The notes under the pieces were generated by a model. That model saw nothing but the letters and a program-made list of their open reading frames with translations. It did no database searches and had not been told where the DNA came from. Positions 22,928-59,332 of a stretch of 64,000 nt of DNA are shown piece after piece. The position numbers were made by a program, and so were the translations under genes. Position 1 is the first letter of the stretch. Each line of letters starts with the position of its first letter. Origin of the DNA: Crateriforma spongiae (GTDB taxonomy: Bacteria; Planctomycetota; Planctomycetia; Pirellulales; Pirellulaceae); NCBI RefSeq assembly GCF_012290005.1, contig NZ_JAAXMS010000005.1, positions 434,001 to 498,000 of the forward strand, written 5' to 3'.

Positions 22928-24877
22928 ATGAAACCAAAGCGCAGGGACCGTTTTTCCACCGGGCATCCAATTCATACTTCCTTGCAATGCCGGATGGTTG
23001 GCGGGCTGATCGTGTTTGCTGCGATTGGACTCTTCGGCGACGAGGTTGTCCGTGCCGAATCCGCGCAAACGCGGGCACCGAACCTGCTTTGGATCGTCAC
23101 CGATGATCATCGGTCCGATTCGATTCAGGCCTACAACCGTGCGGTCCATGGTCAGGACGACAGCCCGCTGGGCCATGTGGAATCGCCCAACATCGACCGC
23201 TTGGCGAGCGAAGGCGTCTTGTTCACACGAGTGTTTTGCAACGCGCCTGTTTGTGCGCCTTCACGCGGATCGATGCATACGGGACGTTACCCGTTTCGCA
23301 ATGGTCACTATGCGTTCGAAATCACGCACCAAGCCCCCGACTTTGTGCGCCCCACCGTGTCGCAAACTCTTCGCAATCACGGGTATCAAACCGCGTTGTT
23401 TGGCAAACCCGGTCACTACATTTTCCGGTGGGGACCTGGGCAGGGATACAACGATGCAGGTTTGTTTGACACCGAAGTCGACTTTAAACACGACCTGCAG
23501 AAAAACGGCATCGGCGAAATCTTCACCGGCGTGCGTTTCGGGAAACGCGACGGGCGCACTCAAGTGGTCGGAACCGCCGAAAAGGTTTTGTATCCCGATG
23601 GCCGAACTAAGGAATATTTCATCAGTCGCGTGGGTGAAGACCTAACACCCGAGGACTTGGCGGCCCGTCGCGAAGTCGATCAACAGTTTGATCTGCTTCG
23701 CAGCTACACGCGATCCAATCCGAATTTGATCATCGGTGGCGTCAACCCAAAGCCGGCCGGGAAGACGGTCGATGCGGCCGTGGTCGATGAATACACTCGA
23801 TATCTGACGAACCGCGACAGCGAATATCTGACCGCTTGGGGAAAAGCACAGCGGGGTGTCGATACCGATCGCCCCGTGTTCATCCACCTCAGTTTTCACC
23901 TGCCCCACACCCCCGTGTTGCCGCCCAAATCATTCCGCGATCGCTTTGCACAGTATTCGTACAAGGTTCCGGAGTTTGATAAGTCCGACGTGGAACGATT
24001 GCCGCCGCAGATGCAGCGGATGTATCAGGCGACCAAGATTGATAATCTGACCCCCGCGGAAAAACAAACGGCCATTCAAGATTACTATGCGTTTTGTGCC
24101 TATGGCGACGCACTGATCGGCGACGCGGTCGACCAATTCAAGGCGTATTGCGAATCACGCGGTGAAGACTATCTGATTCTATTCACCATCGGCGACCATG
24201 GATGGCACTTGGGGGAACAAGGGATCGAAGCCAAATTCACGCCGTGGCGACAATCGGTATGCGATTCGGTCATCTTGGTGTCGTCGGACAAAAACGCTGT
24301 ACCACCCGGAACGGTTTGTGACCAGTTGGTGGAATATGTTGACTTCGCGCCCACGTTGTTGGCGTCCGCCGGTTTAGATATCCAGAGTGAACGCTTCGAC
24401 TATCTGGACGGATACAGTTTGTTTGACGTGATCGACGGCAAGCGAACGGAACGGCAATACGCGGTGGGCGAGATCAACGTGATCGTGGGGCCGCGAGCTT
24501 ATTTGCACACCGATCGTTTTCGATTCTCGATGCGGACGCGTCCCTTCGACAACTTGGTGAACAAGAACCAGTTGGGCCAGGATCTACGCTGGGCGTTGGA
24601 CGCACCAGCGGAGGAAGTGGACTTGATGCTGTACGACTTGGCCGTCGATCCGCTGGAACGGCGAAACGTTGCCGGTCAGTCGGAGTATCGAGAGCTTGCC
24701 GAGTGGTTTCGTCAAAAGCTGGGAAGGATTGTGTTGGGAGACCGTCGGGCGGAGTGTGATTGGTCGATGGAAAACACGTTTCACATCAGTGACTTTGCCC
24801 TTGGGGCCGACGACAAGAAGCTGGACATTCCGCCGGAGATCATTCCCGAACCAAGGATGGTCGGTTCGAAGCGTTGA
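22928..24877 (+). CDS. Secreted sulfatase, formylglycine type (iduronate/choline-sulfatase-like)
   Basis: 649 residues. The motif CAPSR (Cys109-Arg113, in [18 protein letters not shown]) is the canonical CxPxR site where Cys becomes formylglycine. D59-D60 in [12 protein letters not shown] are the first metal-binding residues, and [10 protein letters not shown] supplies the later Asp-His pair. A hydrophobic stretch (about residues 24-42) acts as signal peptide after a basic 22-residue leader; initiation at the ATG at 22994 is an alternative. The protein is inferred to remove sulfate esters from sugars in the periplasm or outside the cell. It stands alone with a 277-bp upstream gap that holds a perfect palindrome and is followed at once by the palindromic repeat array. 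Confidence 0.92.
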
Positions 24878-24888
24878 TCGGTTCGGTG

Positions 24889-25403
24889 GCAACGAATCAA
24901 ACGTGGCGCAGTGGCACCCGCGGCTAGCGCCGTGCGGCTCAAAAATCAGCGGCAAGGCGCTAGCCGCCGGTACGGTGACAACGAGTCAACCGTGGCGCTG
25001 CAACACCCGCGGCTAGCGCCATGCGGCTCACGAATCCCAACAGCATCCTCCTCTGAGCGGCAAGGCGCTAGCCGCCGGTTCGGTAACGACGAGTCAAACG
25101 TGGCGATACAATACCCGCGGCTAGCGCCGTGCGGCTCACGAATCGCAACCGCATCCTCCCCTGAGCGGCAAGGCGCTAGCCGCCGGTACGGTGACAACGA
25201 GTCAACCGTGGCGCTGCAAAACCCGCGGCTAGCGCCATGCGGCTCACGAATCGCAACAGCATCCTCCTCTGAGCGGCAAGGCGCTAGCCGCCGGTTCGGT
25301 AACGACGAGTCAAACGTGGCGATACGACACCCGCGGCTAGCGCCATGCGGCTCACAAATCGCAACCGCATCCTCCTCTGAGCGGCAAGGCGCTAGCCGCC
25401 GGT
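24889..25403 (+). repeat. REP-like palindromic repeat array A (five units)
   Basis: Five direct copies of a unit whose two arms (about 25 nt, core GCGGCTAGCGCC and its complement GGCGCTAGCCGC) form an imperfect hairpin around a loop of about 27 nt that carries 'acgaatcgcaacagcatcc'. The left-arm cores start near 24922, 25011, 25119, 25227 and 25335, giving spacings of 89, 108, 108 and 108. The first unit has a shortened loop. Units are joined by a conserved spacer (cggtaacgacgagtcaaacg then tggcg). The array ends 25 bases before the RAYT gene. Confidence 0.92.
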
Positions 25404-25428
25404 TTATCGCCACGGGTATACAGCCAAC

Positions 25429-25950
25429 ATGCCGAACGATTTTTGTGATCCAGTAACCCTGTTCATTACATGGACCACTTATGGCTCCTGGTTACCCGGT
25501 GATGCCCGTGGTTGGACGAGATGGAAACAGGGCGAGCAACAGCCGCAGCCCGTATTGGAAGACTGGTGCAAAGGCCGGATGAAGGAGAATGCCGTACTGC
25601 TCGATTCCAGTCAGCGTGACAGCGTTGAAGAGGTCATTCGTCAACATGCTGAGCATCGCGGTTGGCAGTTGCATGCGGTTTCAGCACGTTCTAACCATGT
25701 TCATATCTTGGTCACTGTAGTACCCAGCATTGGCAATCCGGACTTTCGCATGTCCGATGGAGTTAAACGGGTTCGCGACCAGTTCAAGGCGAACGCGACG
25801 CGAGTTTTGCGGCGCGGGCAAAATCCAGTTGTGAACGAGAAGGTCTGGACCAGAGGTGGTGATATTCAATTCATAGTCACGGATGACGATCTGGAGAAGG
25901 TCATGATTTATGTATCCGAGGCCCAAGATCGGATGGACCGCGGAAAGTAG
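25429..25950 (+). CDS. REP-associated tyrosine transposase (RAYT), Y1/IS200-like
   Basis: 173 residues. The HUH-type metal motif is H90-V-H92 in SNHVHILV, and the likely nucleophile is Y161 in IYVSEAQ, with the helix Q166 five residues on. The N-terminal TWTTYGSWLPGDARGW is typical of the Y1 transposase / RAYT family (PF01797). RAYTs are single-copy, non-IS domesticated transposases that nick and rejoin single-stranded DNA at REP palindromes. The gene is embedded directly between two arrays of palindromic units and has no IS200 ends of its own that I can see, which is the classic RAYT/REP arrangement. All key residues are present, so it looks intact. ATG at 25429 is the only sensible start. 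Confidence 0.88.
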   Translation: MPNDFCDPVTLFITWTTYGSWLPGDARGWTRWKQGEQQPQPVLEDWCKGRMKENAVLLDSSQRDSVEEVIRQHAEHRGWQLHAVSARSNHVHILVTVVPSIGNPDFRMSDGVKRVRDQFKANATRVLRRGQNPVVNEKVWTRGGDIQFIVTDDDLEKVMIYVSEAQDRMDRGK

Positions 25951-25976
25951 GGATGACGCGATAGTATCAATCTCAT

Positions 25977-26395
25977 CAGCGGCGAGAACCTAGCCGCCGG
26001 TTGGGTTTGCAACGAGTCAAACGTGGCGCTGCATTACCCGGGGCTAGCGCAATGCGGCTCACGAATCAGCGGCGAGGCGTTGGCCGCCGGTTGGGTTGGC
26101 AACGAGTCAGACCGTGGCGCTACAAAACCCGCGGCTAGCGCCGTGCGGCTCACGAATCAGCGGCAAGGCGCTAGCCGCCGGTTGGGTTGGCAACGAATCA
26201 AAACTTGGCGCTGGATAATCCGCGGCTGGCGCCCTGCGGCTCACGAATTAGCGGCCAGGCGCTAGCCGCCCGTCCGATGGAAACGAGTCAAACCGTGGCG
26301 CTGCAAAACCCGCGGCTAGCGCCATGCGGCTCACGAATTAGCGGCCAGACGCTAGCCGCCGGTTTGATGGCAACGAACCAAACATGGCGCTGAGG
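25977..26395 (+). repeat. REP-like palindromic repeat array B (half unit plus four short-loop units)
   Basis: It starts with a lone right arm (25977-26002), then four direct units with left-arm cores near 26042, 26133, 26224 and 26314 (period about 90-91). The arms are the same family as array A, but the loop is the short form ('acgaatcagcgg'). Copies are more diverged than in array A (GCTGGC and GCGTTGGC variants). The array begins 26 bases after the RAYT stop. Confidence 0.9.
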
Positions 26396-26537: not shown

Positions 26538-28739
26538 ATGATGAAACCGTCTGCCATCCTGGTCGTTTTACTTGTTTTGCTATCTCGTGGCGCACCGGCC
26601 CAACAACCGCCGAACATTGTCTTCTTTTTCACCGACGATCAAACAACGTCGACGCTGGGTTGCTACGGAAACCCGATCATCCAGACGCCCAACATTGATC
26701 AACTGGCCAGACAGGGAACTCGGTTTGAAAACGCTTTTGTAAGTCAGGCCATTTGCTGGGTCAGCCGTACCACGATCCTGACCGGCTTGACGGGCCGCAG
26801 CTATGGAACGCCGGGTAATCCCGAGTTGGCAACCGCCGATGCCGTCCGAGAACTGTACACCGATCGCCTTCGTGCCAGCGGCTATCGGACCGGATACTTT
26901 GGCAAGTGGCATGCGAAGATGCCCAAGGATTTTCGTCGCGAAGACCACTTCGATGAGTTTGAAGCGATCGGACGGAACCCTTTCTACAAGCGACAAGCCG
27001 ACGGCAGCCTGCGGCACGAAACCGAAGTGATTGTCGATTGCGGGATCGACTTCATTCAGCGACATGACCCCGACAAGCCGTTCGCACTAAACCTGTGGTT
27101 CAACGCTTGCCACGCCGAAGACAGCGACCGCCGGCCAGGGATCGGTCATTTCCCTTGGCCGCGATCGGTGGACGGCATGTATGACGACGTCCAGATCCCC
27201 GAACCACGTTTGGCGTCGCCTGGCATCTTTGAAAGCCAACCCGATTTTTTGAAAACGACGATCAATCGCGAACGCTATTTTTGGCGTTGGAACACGCCGC
27301 AGAAATATCAAACCAACATGCGTGCTTACTATCGCATGGTCAGCGGGATCGACGGGGCGATCGGCCGCTTTATGAAAGCGCTGGAAGACGCGGGCATGGC
27401 GGACAACACGATCATCGTCTACTCCGCGGACAACGGGTACTACATGGGAAACCGCGGTTTCGCCGGCAAGTGGTCGCACTACGACGATGCTCTTCGCGTC
27501 CCCATGATCGTCATGGATCCTCGAGTGCCCGAGGACGCCAAAGGCCAGGTATCACAGAAGACCGTCTTGAATCTGGATCTTCCGTCGACCTTTCTTGATT
27601 ACGCATCGGTGGAAATTCCCGAACGCTATCAAGGAAACAGCATCCGCCGGATCGTTCAGGGCGATGCCGTGGATGAGTGGAGAACCGAGAGCTTTCATGA
27701 ACACTTTGCAGTACGGAATCGCATCCCGGCATTCGAAGGCCTACGAAACGACCAGTACAAGTACGTTAGGTATTTTGACCACGGCGGGTACGAGTTTCTG
27801 CACGATCTGCAGAACGATCCTGAAGAGCTAACGAACTTGGTCGATGACCCAGATTACGCCGATGTTTTGGCACAGATGCGGAAGCGAACGGATGCTCGGG
27901 TGCAACAATTGGGTGGGCCTTTACAGCCACTGGATCAATTCAACGAATCGACCGATCCCATGCCCGTTGCGGCGGCAAATGTGAGTGCCAAGCCGGATGC
28001 CGATGGATTCATTCGCGTTTTTGACGGAAAGTCGCTGCGTGGTTGGTCGGGCGATTCCAAGTATTGGTCGGTCCAGGACGGTGCATTGACGGGGGTCGCC
28101 GACGGGACCCTGAAGATGAATCGATTCATCACATGGAAGCATTCGACCGTTCGAAACTTTGACCTACGCGTGAAGGTCAAGGTGACCGCCGGCGGCAATA
28201 GCGGCATTCAGTATCGCGGAACGATGCGACCGGATCTTGGTCTGGATGTCGTGTCGGGATACCAGTGTGACGTGGTGGCGGATCGCCCGGATTACAACGG
28301 AATGCTATACGACGAAAAAGGCCGCCGCATCATCGCTCGCACGGGCCAGAAAGTTGTCATCGACACCGACGGCCAGCCCTGGATCGTCGGCGAGTTTCCG
28401 ATTGCAGATTTTGAACCCGACCAGTGGCACGAATACCGCGTCTTGGTCAAAGGCAACCATCATCAGCATTGGATCGATGATCACATGACATCGGACGTGA
28501 TCGATCTGGATGAAGCCGGGCGATCACTGGAAGGAGTTTTGGCCGTGCAGGTTCATGTCGGACCGGCCATGAAGATCCAGTACAAGGACTTTCGCATCAA
28601 GCACTTGCCCGACAACCTGCCCTTGATTCACGCCGGCGACGTTACCATTCCCGAAGGATCGCTGGGCGTGAAGCCACAAGGTCGGCTTCCCAAAGATTGG
28701 CAGCCCCCGAAGTACGCCGCACCGTCGGGCGTCGAATGA
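26538..28739 (+). CDS. Secreted sulfatase fused to a C-terminal DUF1080 (3-keto-disaccharide hydrolase/LamG-like) domain
   Basis: 733 residues. A signal peptide (residues 1-21) precedes a sulfatase domain (about 24-450) with metal residues D33-D34 in FFTDDQTT and the later YSADNGYYMGNRGFAGKW site. The formylglycine position reads C73-W-V-S-R77, so the usual proline of CxPxR is replaced by valine. Residues about 488-718 form a DUF1080 domain (GFIRVFDGKSLRGWSG; NSGIQYRG), a fold seen in 3-keto-glycoside hydrolases. One polypeptide thus joins desulfation to a sugar-active or sugar-binding module. The sugar isomerase-like gene follows 174 bases downstream on the same strand. Whether the CxVxR site is matured by a formylglycine enzyme is open. 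Confidence 0.92.
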   Translation: MMKPSAILVVLLVLLSRGAPAQQPPNIVFFFTDDQTTSTLGCYGNPIIQTPNIDQLARQGTRFENAFVSQAICWVSRTTILTGLTGRSYGTPGNPELATADAVRELYTDRLRASGYRTGYFGKWHAKMPKDFRREDHFDEFEAIGRNPFYKRQADGSLRHETEVIVDCGIDFIQRHDPDKPFALNLWFNACHAEDSDRRPGIGHFPWPRSVDGMYDDVQIPEPRLASPGIFESQPDFLKTTINRERYFWRWNTPQKYQTNMRAYYRMVSGIDGAIGRFMKALEDAGMADNTIIVYSADNGYYMGNRGFAGKWSHYDDALRVPMIVMDPRVPEDAKGQVSQKTVLNLDLPSTFLDYASVEIPERYQGNSIRRIVQGDAVDEWRTESFHEHFAVRNRIPAFEGLRNDQYKYVRYFDHGGYEFLHDLQNDPEELTNLVDDPDYADVLAQMRKRTDARVQQLGGPLQPLDQFNESTDPMPVAAANVSAKPDADGFIRVFDGKSLRGWSGDSKYWSVQDGALTGVADGTLKMNRFITWKHSTVRNFDLRVKVKVTAGGNSGIQYRGTMRPDLGLDVVSGYQCDVVADRPDYNGMLYDEKGRRIIARTGQKVVIDTDGQPWIVGEFPIADFEPDQWHEYRVLVKGNHHQHWIDDHMTSDVIDLDEAGRSLEGVLAVQVHVGPAMKIQYKDFRIKHLPDNLPLIHAGDVTIPEGSLGVKPQGRLPKDWQPPKYAAPSGVE

Positions 28740-55691: not shown

Positions 55692-57578
55692 TCATTTGAC
55701 GGTGTTGTTGGTGCCTTCCAGTTCGTTGAGCGCGCGATTGATCACGCGAACGCGATACTTGCCTTCGGAGTTGAAACCGGGGGTGTACTGAAGACCTTGC
55801 CGCATGTCATCGATGACGGGTCGAGCCTGTTCGTCGATCTCGTCCAACACGATCGCCGCGTGCAAGCGTTCCCACTGCTGTCCCGTCGTCATTTCGTTGA
55901 TCAGCACACCCAACGCTTGCTCCGGAGCGCCCATCCGACAAAGCGCTCGTGCCGCGGCAGTACGAACGGCCGATGATTCGTCGTGCAACATCTTTTGCAT
56001 CCCATCAATGGCGGAACCCTTTGCCGAATCCGCCATGTTGCCGATGCCCACCGCCGCCCAGTAGCGCACGGCGCTGTCGGGATCATCGGTTGCACGGACC
56101 AAATCGGGCAAAGCCGACGGTCCGGATGATGCCAACACGGCGGTGTCGGCGATTCGAGCTACGGTGGATTCCTGCCCGGGTTGTCGAAGGATCGCGTATT
56201 CGTTGCCCAGCGTTTCTCGACGTTCGATAATGATCGGCTCGGGAATCAATCCGATATCCCGAGTCTGCTTGACCCAGCGAAGGTGCGCATCACGCATACG
56301 TTTCAGCTGGTCAGCAAATGCGGGATCATCCGCCAGATTGTTGACTTGATGGGGGTCGGCGACACAGTCGTATAACTCTTCGACCGGCTTGGTCGGCGCG
56401 AACAAAGCCTCCGCCTCAGCAGGCAACTCTCCCGCTTCGTGAAGTCGTCGAAGCTCCCGCATCGTCGCGCCCTTTTCCGGCGTATTCATGTACTGGTAGT
56501 ACGTCTTCAGCGGCTCGTAATTTCGGATGTAACGGAACCTTTTGTCACGGACCGTTCGGATGATGTCGTACCTTTCATCCATCCGGTCGCGTCCGCCATA
56601 GACGTAATCGCGTGGCGACGCGGCACCATTGCCAAGAAACGCTTGACCTTGGACATGGGGGGGGACTTCAATGCCTGCGAGCCGCAGCACGGTGGGGCCA
56701 AAGTCGATCGAACTGACCAGCCGGTCGGTTGTTGTTCCAGGCCGTTCTTCATCGGAATCACGAAACCGCTCCGGAATCCGGATCACCAGTGGGATGTGGG
56801 TTCCGGAGTCATAAAGCCAACGTTTGGCCCGAGGCAATCCGACGCCATGGTCCGACCAAAACATGATGATCGTGTTGTCGTACAGCCCGTCTTCCTTCAA
56901 CTGATCGATCAAATCACCGGCCCAGTGATCCATCGCCGTGATCAGTTCATAGTTGCGTTTCCAGTCTTCGCGAACGGTCGGCGTGTCGGGATAGTAGGGA
57001 GGAAGCGTCAACGCGTCGGCGTCTTGACGCTCCGAAGGAGCCAACCCCTCTGTCACGGACTTGTACTTCTCCGAACTTGCGATTCCTGACTCGTGACATC
57101 CAGTGAAATTGAAGACGGAAAAGAACGGTTGGGACTTTTCTGGACGATTTCGCCAATGGGCTTTGCGGGATGATTCATCCCACGTGTCTTTGGGGTGGTC
57201 GAACTGGTAGTCCGTTTTGGAATTGTTGGTGCAGTAGTAACCCGTTTGACGCAGATAGATCGGGAATGGCTTGATGTCGTCGGGCAACTTTGCCGTGCAA
57301 CGCATGTGGTGCGTGCCAAGGGTCGTTTGATACAGGCCGGTGATGATCCCGCTGCGACACGGCGCACACACACCCGCGGTGGTGAACGCGTGGGAGTACC
57401 TCACACCTTCCTTTGCCAACTGATCGATATTCGGCGTGATGGCGTTCGGGTCGCCGTAACATCCCAGATGCGGGCTGATGTCTTCGCAGGATAGCCAAAG
57501 AATGTTCGGACGGTCTTGGTCCGCGATGCCGTTTACTGCCGCAAGTCCGACTAGACAAGCGAAGATCAGAAGTCTCAT
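55692..57578 (-). CDS. Secreted sulfatase with C-terminal HEAT repeats
   Basis: 628 residues, signal peptide 1-19. The formylglycine motif is canonical: C71-A-P-C-R75 in TTAGVCAPCRSGIITG. The first metal pair reads E32-D33 (LWLSCEDISP). SDHGVGLPRAKRWLYDSG and HMR follow. Residues 1-470 form the sulfatase; residues about 480-610 hold HEAT-like helical repeats (LPDLVRATDDPDSAVRYWA, AIDGMQKMLHDESSAVRTAA, ALGVLINEMTTG). The fusion suggests a protein-contact module. It stands alone upstream of TRIC, with an inverted repeat GACATC-N6-GATGTC (57632-57649) upstream of its start. Confidence 0.9.
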   Translation of the reverse strand: MRLLIFACLVGLAAVNGIADQDRPNILWLSCEDISPHLGCYGDPNAITPNIDQLAKEGVRYSHAFTTAGVCAPCRSGIITGLYQTTLGTHHMRCTAKLPDDIKPFPIYLRQTGYYCTNNSKTDYQFDHPKDTWDESSRKAHWRNRPEKSQPFFSVFNFTGCHESGIASSEKYKSVTEGLAPSERQDADALTLPPYYPDTPTVREDWKRNYELITAMDHWAGDLIDQLKEDGLYDNTIIMFWSDHGVGLPRAKRWLYDSGTHIPLVIRIPERFRDSDEERPGTTTDRLVSSIDFGPTVLRLAGIEVPPHVQGQAFLGNGAASPRDYVYGGRDRMDERYDIIRTVRDKRFRYIRNYEPLKTYYQYMNTPEKGATMRELRRLHEAGELPAEAEALFAPTKPVEELYDCVADPHQVNNLADDPAFADQLKRMRDAHLRWVKQTRDIGLIPEPIIIERRETLGNEYAILRQPGQESTVARIADTAVLASSGPSALPDLVRATDDPDSAVRYWAAVGIGNMADSAKGSAIDGMQKMLHDESSAVRTAAARALCRMGAPEQALGVLINEMTTGQQWERLHAAIVLDEIDEQARPVIDDMRQGLQYTPGFNSEGKYRVRVINRALNELEGTNNTVK

Positions 57579-57663: not shown

Positions 57664-58553
57664 TCGGCGACCTTGCCGCTGATGGGGAGGATGCTGTTGG
57701 GATTCGTTAGCCGCACGGCGCTAGCCGCGGGTGCCTTAACGCCACGATAGACTCGTTGCCATCGAAACGGCGGCTAGCGCCTTGCCGCTCAGAGGAGGAT
57801 GCGGTTGGTGTTCGTGAGCCGCACGGCGCTAGCCGCGGGTTCCTGAGCGCCACGTTTGACTCGTTGCCATCGAACCGGCGGCTAGCGCCTTGCCGCTGAT
57901 GGGGAGGATGTTGTTGGGATTCGTGAGCCGCACGGCGCTAGCCGCGGATGTCTGAACGCCACGTTTGACTCGTTGCCATCGAACCGGCGGCTAGCGCCTT
58001 GCCGCTGACGGGGAGGCTGCGGTTGGGATTCGTGAGCCGCTGGTCGCTAGCCGCGGGTGCCTGAGCGCCACGTTTGACTCGTTGCCATCGAACCGGCGGC
58101 TAGCGCCTTGCCGCTCAGAGGAGGGTGCGGTTGGGATTCATGAGCCGCACGGCGCTAGCCGCGGGTGTCTTAACGCCACGTTTGACTCGTTGCCATCGAA
58201 CCGGCGGCTAGCGCCTTGCCGCTCAGGGGAGGATGCGATTGGGGTTTGTGAGCCGCACGGCGCTAGCCGCGGGTGTCGGGGCGTCGCGTTTTGATTGGTT
58301 GGCAACGAACCGGCGGCTAGCGCCTTGCCGCTAAGAGGAGGATGCGGTCGGGATTCGTGAGCCGCACGGCGCTAGCCGCGGGTTCCATAGCGCCACGTTT
58401 GACTCGTTGCTATCGAACCGGCGGCTAGCGCCTTGCCGCTGATGGGGAGGATGCTGTTGGGATTCATGAGCCGCTGGTCGCTAGCCGCGGGTGTCTTAAC
58501 GCCACGATAGACTCGTTGCCATCGAACCGGCGGCTAGCGCCTTGCCGCTCAGG
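57664..58553 (-). repeat. REP-like palindromic repeat array C (eight hairpins plus half)
   Basis: Same repeat family as arrays A and B but in the opposite orientation. The left-arm core GGCTAGCGCC starts at 57772, 57880, 57989, 58098, 58206, 58315, 58423 and 58532 (period 108-109), preceded by a degenerate arm near 57664. Each hairpin is separated by 'actcgttgcc' with 'atcgaa'. Some units share rare variants: 'gctggtcgctagcc' occurs near 58040 and 58470, and units near the two ends share 'cacgatagactc', suggesting unequal exchange. No RAYT gene is next to this array. Confidence 0.92.
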
Positions 58554-58555
58554 GA

Positions 58556-59332
58556 GTGAACCGATTGTTGATGCGGGGCGGGAATTGGGAGGCGGCCGCT
58601 CGTTTTCTGCCCGCCGGTTCGGACCAGCGTCCGCCTGATCTATCCCTGTGGTTCAGCAATGGCTACCCAGGCGATCCGACACGATTGCCCGTCGCTGACA
58701 TTCGGGTGCTCGGTCGCGATGGGGGCCAACTGCGCCAGTTGCGTTGCAGCGGCTTGCGAGACCGCAAGTCAGCGTTCACCCAGTACACGGCGTTTCTGCG
58801 CCAGTCGGTTCGCAACGAGCAGAACCCTGCCGCGTTGCAGGTTTCCGTCGGCGGTGAGGGCCTGAAATCCATGCAAAAGCAAATCGCTTGGCGGCATCGG
58901 ACCGCATCAAATCAGAAGTTGCGTCTTTTGTCCGACGTGCCTTTGGAAATGAGCGTTTTCGATGCCGAATCGGGACAACCCATCTCCGGTGCAACGATCT
59001 GGAAGGGGACGGTGCGGATGGCAAACACAACCGATGCTAAAGGGAAGGTCTCCATCAGCCATCTTTCTCCGATAGCCACCCGCGTTCATGTCGTCGCCGA
59101 TGGGTATCATGCCGCCGAGGTGTTGGTTCCATGGCCGGATCTGTCGGTCGCGCTGGCCGGTATCGACGGCTACCAGCCCAAGGTGACGACCAATGAACGG
59201 GGAAGGTTTGCCATCCATGGCATTCATTCCGATGTCGCTTTCGTGATCGCCTTAGGCTTTGTTTATCAATTCAACACGAAAGCCAATGAAAACGGTAACC
59301 CGACGCGTCAGCGAGGGACTCTTGATGAATGA
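58556..59332 (+). CDS. Uncertain ORF, probably a gene remnant with carboxypeptidase regulatory-like segments
   Basis: 258 residues, starting at a GTG at the edge of repeat array C. The N-terminal half is unfamiliar; residues about 130-175 (SVFDAESGQPISGATIWKG then TTDAKGKVSISHL) and about 190-225 (YQPKVTTNERGRFAIHGI) resemble carboxypeptidase regulatory-like (transthyretin-fold) domains, truncated. The final 12 residues (NPTRQRGTLDE) are translated from a separate repeat and not ancestral. No signal peptide, start codon or promoter is convincing. It looks like a piece of a larger protein left between two repeats; a real small gene cannot be excluded. Confidence 0.35.
   Translation: MNRLLMRGGNWEAAARFLPAGSDQRPPDLSLWFSNGYPGDPTRLPVADIRVLGRDGGQLRQLRCSGLRDRKSAFTQYTAFLRQSVRNEQNPAALQVSVGGEGLKSMQKQIAWRHRTASNQKLRLLSDVPLEMSVFDAESGQPISGATIWKGTVRMANTTDAKGKVSISHLSPIATRVHVVADGYHAAEVLVPWPDLSVALAGIDGYQPKVTTNERGRFAIHGIHSDVAFVIALGFVYQFNTKANENGNPTRQRGTLDE

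Follow-up and report, generated by a model that had tools for sequence, protein, structure and literature searches.

The stretch of DNA analysed here, a window of 64 kb, encodes a Y1 HUH transposase that lies between two sulfatase genes and has an array of short hairpin repeats on either side (Table 1). The protein scores 29.9 bits against the Pfam Y1_Tnp model, whose cut-off is 23, and residues H90, H92, Y161 and Q166 are invariant in an alignment of 29 proteins. The open reading frame, the Pfam match and this alignment bear out an earlier interpretation made from the nucleotide letters (hereafter the sequence-only reading), which had placed here a Y1 transposase with its HVH motif and tyrosine as given in Table 1. 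The HuH motif takes the form NHVH (N89-H90-V91-H92), and a W[TA] motif is present at W140-T141. Among the 93 distinct proteins compared below, WT is found in 83, and HxH together with Y....Q in 88. Two NCBIfam models score below their cut-offs: the RAYT model REP_Tyr_transpos gives 24 bits (cut-off 80), and transpos_IS200 gives 30.6 (cut-off 55). The AlphaFold model of the protein (mean pLDDT 80) resembles IS608, ISDra2, and the E. coli RAYT 4er8 about equally in a fold comparison, and a PDB sequence search with the protein returned no match at E <= 0.01.

Table 1. Coordinates of the transposase gene, the REP arrays and their neighbours in the window.
Feature	Position	Strand	Details
Sulfatase gene	22928..24877		left of the transposase locus
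Left array	24918..25401	.	10 REP units, 24 nt each = 5 REPINs; 37-nt spacers; period 108
Left-array units	24918-, 24946+, 25007-, 25054+, 25115-, 25162+, 25223-, 25270+, 25331-, 25378+		
Y1 HUH transposase (RAYT, class-3-like)	25429..25950	+	173 aa; HVH 90-92, Trp140-Thr, Tyr161, Gln166
Degraded REP unit	25976..25999	+	foot TCAG; 25 nt after the stop codon; without inverted partner
Right array	26038..26361	.	8 REP units = 4 REPINs; loop CGAA, 4 nt; spacers 38-39 nt; period 90-91
Right-array units	26038-, 26066+, 26129-, 26157+, 26220-, 26248+, 26310-, 26338+		
Sulfatase gene	26538..28739		right of the transposase locus
Sulfatase gene	55692..57578	-	beside the second array
Second array	57707..58551	.	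16 REP units, 108-109-bp class; no Pfam Y1_Tnp match beside the array
Carboxypeptidase-regulatory-like-domain ORF	58556..59332	+	beside the second array

The repeated unit of the genome to which the window belongs is a REP of 24 nt, which folds as CSGC-NN-GGC-GCTA-GCC-GCSG and carries an unpaired foot, TGAG, TCAG, or TTAG. Read from the foot, it occurs in two versions, TNAG-CGGC-NN-GGC-GCTA-GCC-GCCG and TNAG-CCGC-NN-GGC-GCTA-GCC-GCGG, which differ by a compensatory change in the outer stem. With a search pattern that allowed mismatch between the stem sides, the two sides of the outer stem agree in all 67 units read in stretches of this genome (the window and loci L012-L022) and in 65 of 65 units at the loci of relatives. 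Pair counts taken from the two-part hairpin listing around the relatives' genes were discarded as evidence, because that listing accepts only paired stems. The sequence-only reading had located a CTAG tetranucleotide within the stem, in place of the foot. This was mistaken: CTAG consists of the last three bases of the GCTA loop and the first base of the 3' stem, so that it was also rejected as a candidate foot, and the foot is TNAG. Similarly, the canonical REP foot, quoted there as GTAG or GGAG, is given as GT[AG]G in the portion of the literature available to us (PMC6006769).

In both arrays flanking the gene, REP copies alternate in strand, and each pair with facing feet is therefore a REPIN; what had been described as a hairpin unit is in fact two inverted REPs. 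The feature that defines REPINs and BIMEs, two inverted REPs that are themselves repeated, is thus present in the window. Loop and spacer lengths together account for the periods of 108 and 90-91 bp. These periods had been recognized from the sequence, as had the position of the arrays on both sides of the gene, and the gap between the gene and the nearest REP unit is 27 nt on the left and 25 nt on the right. The proposal that the arrays represent two structural classes stands in part: the foot-to-foot loops measure 23 nt on the left and 4 nt on the right, and the spacers 37 versus 38-39 nt, but the left array is not pure, its first REPIN having a 4-nt loop and only the remaining four the 23-nt form. 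The TIRYT type described by Di Nocera's group in 2013 is marked by long TIRs that are unrelated to REPs; of 57 inverted-repeat pairs around the gene, the 25 longest fall inside the REP arrays. A second, larger array lies elsewhere in the window, between a sulfatase gene and an ORF with a carboxypeptidase-regulatory-like domain. Its orientation is opposite to that of the left array, and it again adjoins a sulfatase gene. At another locus (L014, 924-1201), REP units are arranged head-to-tail in tandem with a 40-bp period rather than as inverted pairs.

Relatives of the transposase were collected from 241 genomes of the family and from GTDB contigs (the best 80 of 260 stretches encoding a relative). 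This gave 111 loci including that of the window, of which 93 are distinct by their last 120 residues; 18 were dropped as duplicates, among them L067, which is a second, frame-broken copy in the same MAG and not a repeat fetch. At E <= 1e-15, a profile match was obtained in 52 of 392 sampled genomes of the phylum. Around the 93 distinct genes, two-part hairpins, listed with four-base loops and blind to the letters of foot and loop, reach 9.9 per kb within 250 nt of the gene, compared with 3.0 per kb beyond 1 kb. Feet of the form T.AG accompany 194 of 497 near hairpins versus 21 of 519 far ones, and the commonest near loops are GCTA, GCAA, GCGA, and GATA, plus their complements read from the other strand. 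A strict hairpin, defined by a [TG]NAG foot, a GNNA loop, and a 5' bulge, is found within 400 nt at 62 of the 93 loci and is absent at 31. For the 63 loci having 1400 nt on both sides, it occurs near the gene at 44 versus 3 in control windows of equal size. A laxer definition (6 bp, any NNAG foot) recovers a hairpin at 11 of the 31 strict-negative loci, 8 of these being of the CACGACGCG or CCCGACGCG types; among the 19 strict-negative loci with long flanks, this definition finds a hairpin near the gene at 8 and far from it at none.

These hairpins follow a general plan: the foot TNAG stands at the 5' end, the outer stem is short, a bulge of 1-3 nt in the 5' arm separates it from the inner stem, and the tetraloop reads GNNA. 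Among 250 hairpins whose loop fits GNNA, T is found at position -4 in 182, A at -2 in 219, and G at -1 in 216, with position -3 variable; C at -5 is found in 43, and some arms of the window's genome read CTGA and others GTGA. The window's own locus was excluded from these 250 hairpins and from a set of 133 hairpins flanking the RAYT genes of relatives, in which no conserved column for a CT dinucleotide was found within 15 nt on either side. Immediately 3' of the hairpin, the latter set has G or T as its first base in 126 of 133 cases and T as its second in 113 of 133. The A of the foot could pair with the T at +2 across a mismatch. Searches of Rfam gave 5 matches, each far under its gathering score.

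The REP type follows the enzyme phylogeny. A quick tree of 92 proteins (L024, which has an in-frame stop, was excluded) contains four main clades supported at 96-99 that hold nearly all of the 61 labelled proteins, while 43 of the 89 inner branches of the tree are unresolved. The clade of the window combines TGAG or TCAG with a 2-nt bulge and GCTA; the second has TGAG or TTAG, a 1-nt bulge, and GCTA; the third has TCAG, TTAG, or TGAG with CCG stems and mostly 2-3-nt bulges; and the fourth has TTAG, TAAG, or GNAG, a 1-nt bulge, and GCAA or GCGA. For the 61 labelled proteins, foot, stem, bulge, and loop require 13, 8, 8, and 11 changes on the tree, whereas 500 shuffles averaged 28.8, 22.2, 23.2, and 20.2 and never gave a value as low for any of the four characters. 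Clade and repeat type agree in this comparison of a RAYT tree with repeat types, which the sequence-only reading had suggested as a check. Shared descent of the host DNA could contribute part of this agreement. In three organisms, however, enzymes of two different clades occur together and both loci have a strict hairpin (Planctomycetes bacterium TBK1r, L083/L091; Botrimarina colliarenosi, L071/L075; and one MAG, L078/L081), and in each of them every enzyme has the REP of its own clade, which speaks against shared descent as the whole story. In the remaining two-enzyme organisms, the strict hairpin is missing at one or both loci, or the enzymes belong to one clade (K23_9, L063 and L088).

A separate observation concerns the start of the gene. 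At seven of the 93 distinct loci, every one in the clade of the window (L027, L028, L029, L030, L031, L033, and L035), the transposase start, or the sequence just ahead of it, contains REP units in frame, which would read VSGKALAAG or similar; L029 has three copies.

The genome of the window holds one intact copy of the transposase gene, one paralogue of 50% identity, and one decayed fragment of 54 residues (72% identical). The fragment, found at L013, 1063-1221 on the minus strand, contains one stop and lies between REP units. In a congener (L023), the gene is found at the same locus with 92% amino acid identity, and dN/dS between the two copies is 0.15. Given the one intact copy, the same locus in the congener, and this ratio, the transposase is, as far as sequence comparison can tell, a kept gene in this lineage and under purifying selection. 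Taken with the proximity of the hairpins, their covariation, the clade matching, and the within-genome controls, the single intact copy, the synteny, and the selection support the view, already advanced in the sequence-only reading, of a RAYT with cognate REPs. The transposase most likely recognizes the hairpins that surround it, and we consider it very probable that the locus represents a class-3 REPtron, that is, a Y1 transposase that this lineage has retained in place, together with its own REP family.

According to the mechanism that we envisage for this REPtron, the enzyme would bind the REP hairpin in single-stranded DNA and read its foot, bulge, and loop, and Tyr161 would cut beside the hairpin. 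In the guide model of other REPtrons, as set out in the portion of the source available to us, A3 and G4 of GTAG choose CT (PMC8266576); by analogy, the constant A and G of the TNAG foot would direct the enzyme to CT as well, although the CT column that this leads one to expect beside the REPs is the one not found within 15 nt of the 133 hairpins. Cutting would lead to REPs being excised or copied, and arrays could then grow and homogenize via recombination or slippage. REPINs are found both in tandem arrays and scattered in the genome. The two congeners offer a view of how arrays change. In the genome of the window, loops of 23-24 nt are found in 4 of 5 REPINs of the left array and in 7 of 7 of the second array, in contrast to the congener, where the left array and the counterpart of the second array have 4-nt loops (5 of 5 and 9 of 9 loops read, and none of 18 overall with 23-24 nt). 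In the right array, the two genomes agree in having 4-nt loops. Mean unit identity is 0.865 between the second and left arrays versus 0.822 between the second array and its congener counterpart; the left array differs only slightly in this respect, with 0.865 to the second array and 0.856 to its own counterpart. The two 108-bp arrays of the window's genome do not group together in a tree of units, and the case for concerted change is made by the loop class and the mean identity. The shared class of 23-24-nt loops thus suggests that, in one lineage, a single REPIN variant has come to occupy both of these arrays, which lie about 32 kb from each other, the agent being either the enzyme or plain recombination.

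This last choice is where the most serious rival enters, namely that the enzyme once spread the REPs and is now inactive in spreading, with present changes in the arrays owed solely to slippage during replication and to gene conversion. Units resemble one another within an array and within a genome, and recombination alone can produce such resemblance, but the catalytic residues have been kept and a dN/dS of 0.15 points to purifying selection; we regard past activity alone as possible, though on the unlikely side. A bolder version of the REPtron reading is just as tentative. It holds that class-3 enzymes may read a modular hairpin code, made up of a TNAG guide, bulge size, and GNNA loop and re-set in each clade, and may actively rewrite REPIN arrays, as the 23-nt form in two arrays versus the 4-nt form in the congener could indicate, with the REP codons at the N-terminus in the window's clade tying the repeat to the enzyme. 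We put this forward as a speculation rather than an expectation.

Copy numbers bear on another alternative, according to which the arrays, as satellites or regulatory structures, are maintained for reasons unconnected with the enzyme, such as termination or gyrase or IHF sites, and the transposase is there by chance. The arm core occurs in 84 copies in the 6.87-Mb genome versus 15 for a reversed control, and the full 24-nt unit, with up to 3 mismatches, in 102 versus 6. A second repeat, GTCGCCTTTCGCTCCG, occurs in 94 copies (at most 1 mismatch) versus 1 for its reversed control, and often no more than a few bases separate it from a REP arm's foot, for example at L015-L018, L020, and L022. Across the 241 family genomes, counted by eye, at least 20 REP copies were found in 21 of the 99 genomes with a hit to the window protein at E <= 1e-5 versus 4 of the 142 without (Fisher P 5e-6); with one mismatch allowed, the copy pattern picks up REPs of other clades too, and fragments and other clades of the enzyme are among the hits that define the 99 genomes. 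The sequence-only reading had held that wide occurrence of the repeat without an enzyme of this clade would count against the pairing, and this is seen to a limited extent: one of the four no-hit genomes with at least 20 copies, G109, holds 216 REP copies, and no class-3 enzyme was found in it. At E <= 0.01, the profile matches a single protein there, a different Y1 protein that has a YVQENP motif, and no REP units were found in the 3 kb around that protein. Loss of the enzyme or a gap in the draft assembly (95% complete) are candidate causes that would explain this pattern. Besides G109, the second large array of the window, which has no Y1 gene alongside, fits arrays maintained for other reasons. 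Against these stand the near/far contrast at 63 loci, the clade-matched hairpin types, the organisms whose two enzymes have two hairpin types, and the tie between copy number and enzyme presence, and a chance association of gene and arrays appears quite improbable.

The remaining alternative is an insertion sequence of the IS200/IS605 type with its own hairpin ends. The best fold matches are to TnpA proteins of that family, transpos_IS200 scores slightly above the RAYT model with both under their cut-offs, and the Y----Q motif resembles that of class 1. In addition, a decayed second copy lies between REP units in the genome of the window, and the MAG M30B19 holds two copies on different contigs (L056 2014-3215 and L067 1752-3207) that are 97-98% identical in DNA including their REP flanks. 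However, the stretch shared by these two copies starts in the 3' half of a tRNA-Leu gene (L056 1986-2070) and not at a REP, and L067 keeps only this 3' half and is frame-broken near the start of its transposase gene. Candidate explanations for the duplicate are an element that joined at a tRNA gene and an effect of the assembly; a REP-bounded transposition fits its appearance less well. This pair excepted, protein identity between loci from different places never exceeds 90% among the 111, in a comparison that covered the fetched loci, repeat fetches aside, and in which the window gene and L023 (92%, of different lengths) were not paired. Elements of the IS200/IS605 family have a fixed same-strand LE/RE plan. 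At 54 loci, by contrast, the orientation of the nearest flanking REPs is mixed (+- 18, -+ 16, ++ 12, -- 8). A multi-copy IS, which the sequence-only reading had also named as evidence against its view, is not what the genome of the window holds, although one relative has a near-identical second copy. With one intact copy, the same locus occupied in the congener, and about 100 hairpins lying mostly away from the gene, an IS element is not favoured on copy number and synteny, and we judge it most unlikely.

If the REPtron reading holds, the dozens of enzyme-hairpin pairs (62 of 93 loci), with their clade-specific foot, bulge, and loop and sometimes two to a genome, constitute a ready-made set for finding out which letters each enzyme reads and whether the foot A-G sets the cutting site. 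The two congeners likewise provide a natural comparison for array replacement.

Among known systems, the closest is class 3 of the TnpA-Y1 proteins, described by Quentin et al. (2018, PMC6006769). In the portion of that paper available to us, this class is rare and found in Planctomycetes, Acidobacteria, and Proteobacteria, has the motifs NHVH, W[TA], and Y----Q, and is associated with non-GTAG hairpins with a CnGA foot, about 600 of them in one genome. By its motifs, the window protein appears to be a class 3 member, and it shares with the class a length of about 170 aa, the occurrence in Planctomycetes, several non-GTAG hairpins at the gene, and a high hairpin number in some genomes. The suggestion that the RAYT/REP pair might be undescribed is therefore not supported at the level of the class, since the three motifs, the phylum, and the non-GTAG hairpins all match class 3. 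The reported foot CnGA differs from that of the REPs studied here, which mostly have TNAG (250 hairpins) along with a GNNA loop, a 5' bulge, and clade-specific types; CnGA does not fit them as a rule, C at -5 being present in 43 of 250, and the foot is better written TNAG. The accessible portion of the 2018 paper makes no mention of paired-REP arrays or REP-coded N-termini for class 3, and the TNAG foot, GNNA loop, bulge, and clade-specific types were not found in the available text of the open-licence PMC literature, including PMC6006769, PMC3733652, PMC8266576, and PMC6749651.

Canonical REPtrons, exemplified by TnpA-REP of E. coli (PMC8266576, as far as its available text goes), share with the system described here a foot ending in A-G that lies 5' of a bulged hairpin, and inverted pairs in arrays (BIME/REPIN). 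They differ in having GTAG instead of TNAG and YIHYNP instead of Y----Q, and the window protein is 12% identical to 4er8. The canonical foot GT[AG]G is not the rule here, with T at -4 in 182 of 250 hairpins, and GTAG is found at some loci of one clade. In R. baltica, 'a plethora' of Y1 genes with flanking repeats was noted by Di Nocera's group in 2013 (PMC3733652); a class-3-like gene was found there in the present work too (L070), and the 2013 description, in its accessible part, places the genes under GTAG families and TIRs. The TnpA proteins of the IS200/IS605 family (IS608, ISDra2) have the HUH-Y1 fold and hairpins near the gene in common with the system of the window, where, by contrast, one intact copy sits at the same place as in the congener and the hairpins far outnumber the gene. 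Within the literature searched and the text available from it, the hairpin rules, the clade matching, the REP-coded N-termini, and the two-array difference are additions to the published picture of class 3, and the hairpin rules sharpen its 2018 description.
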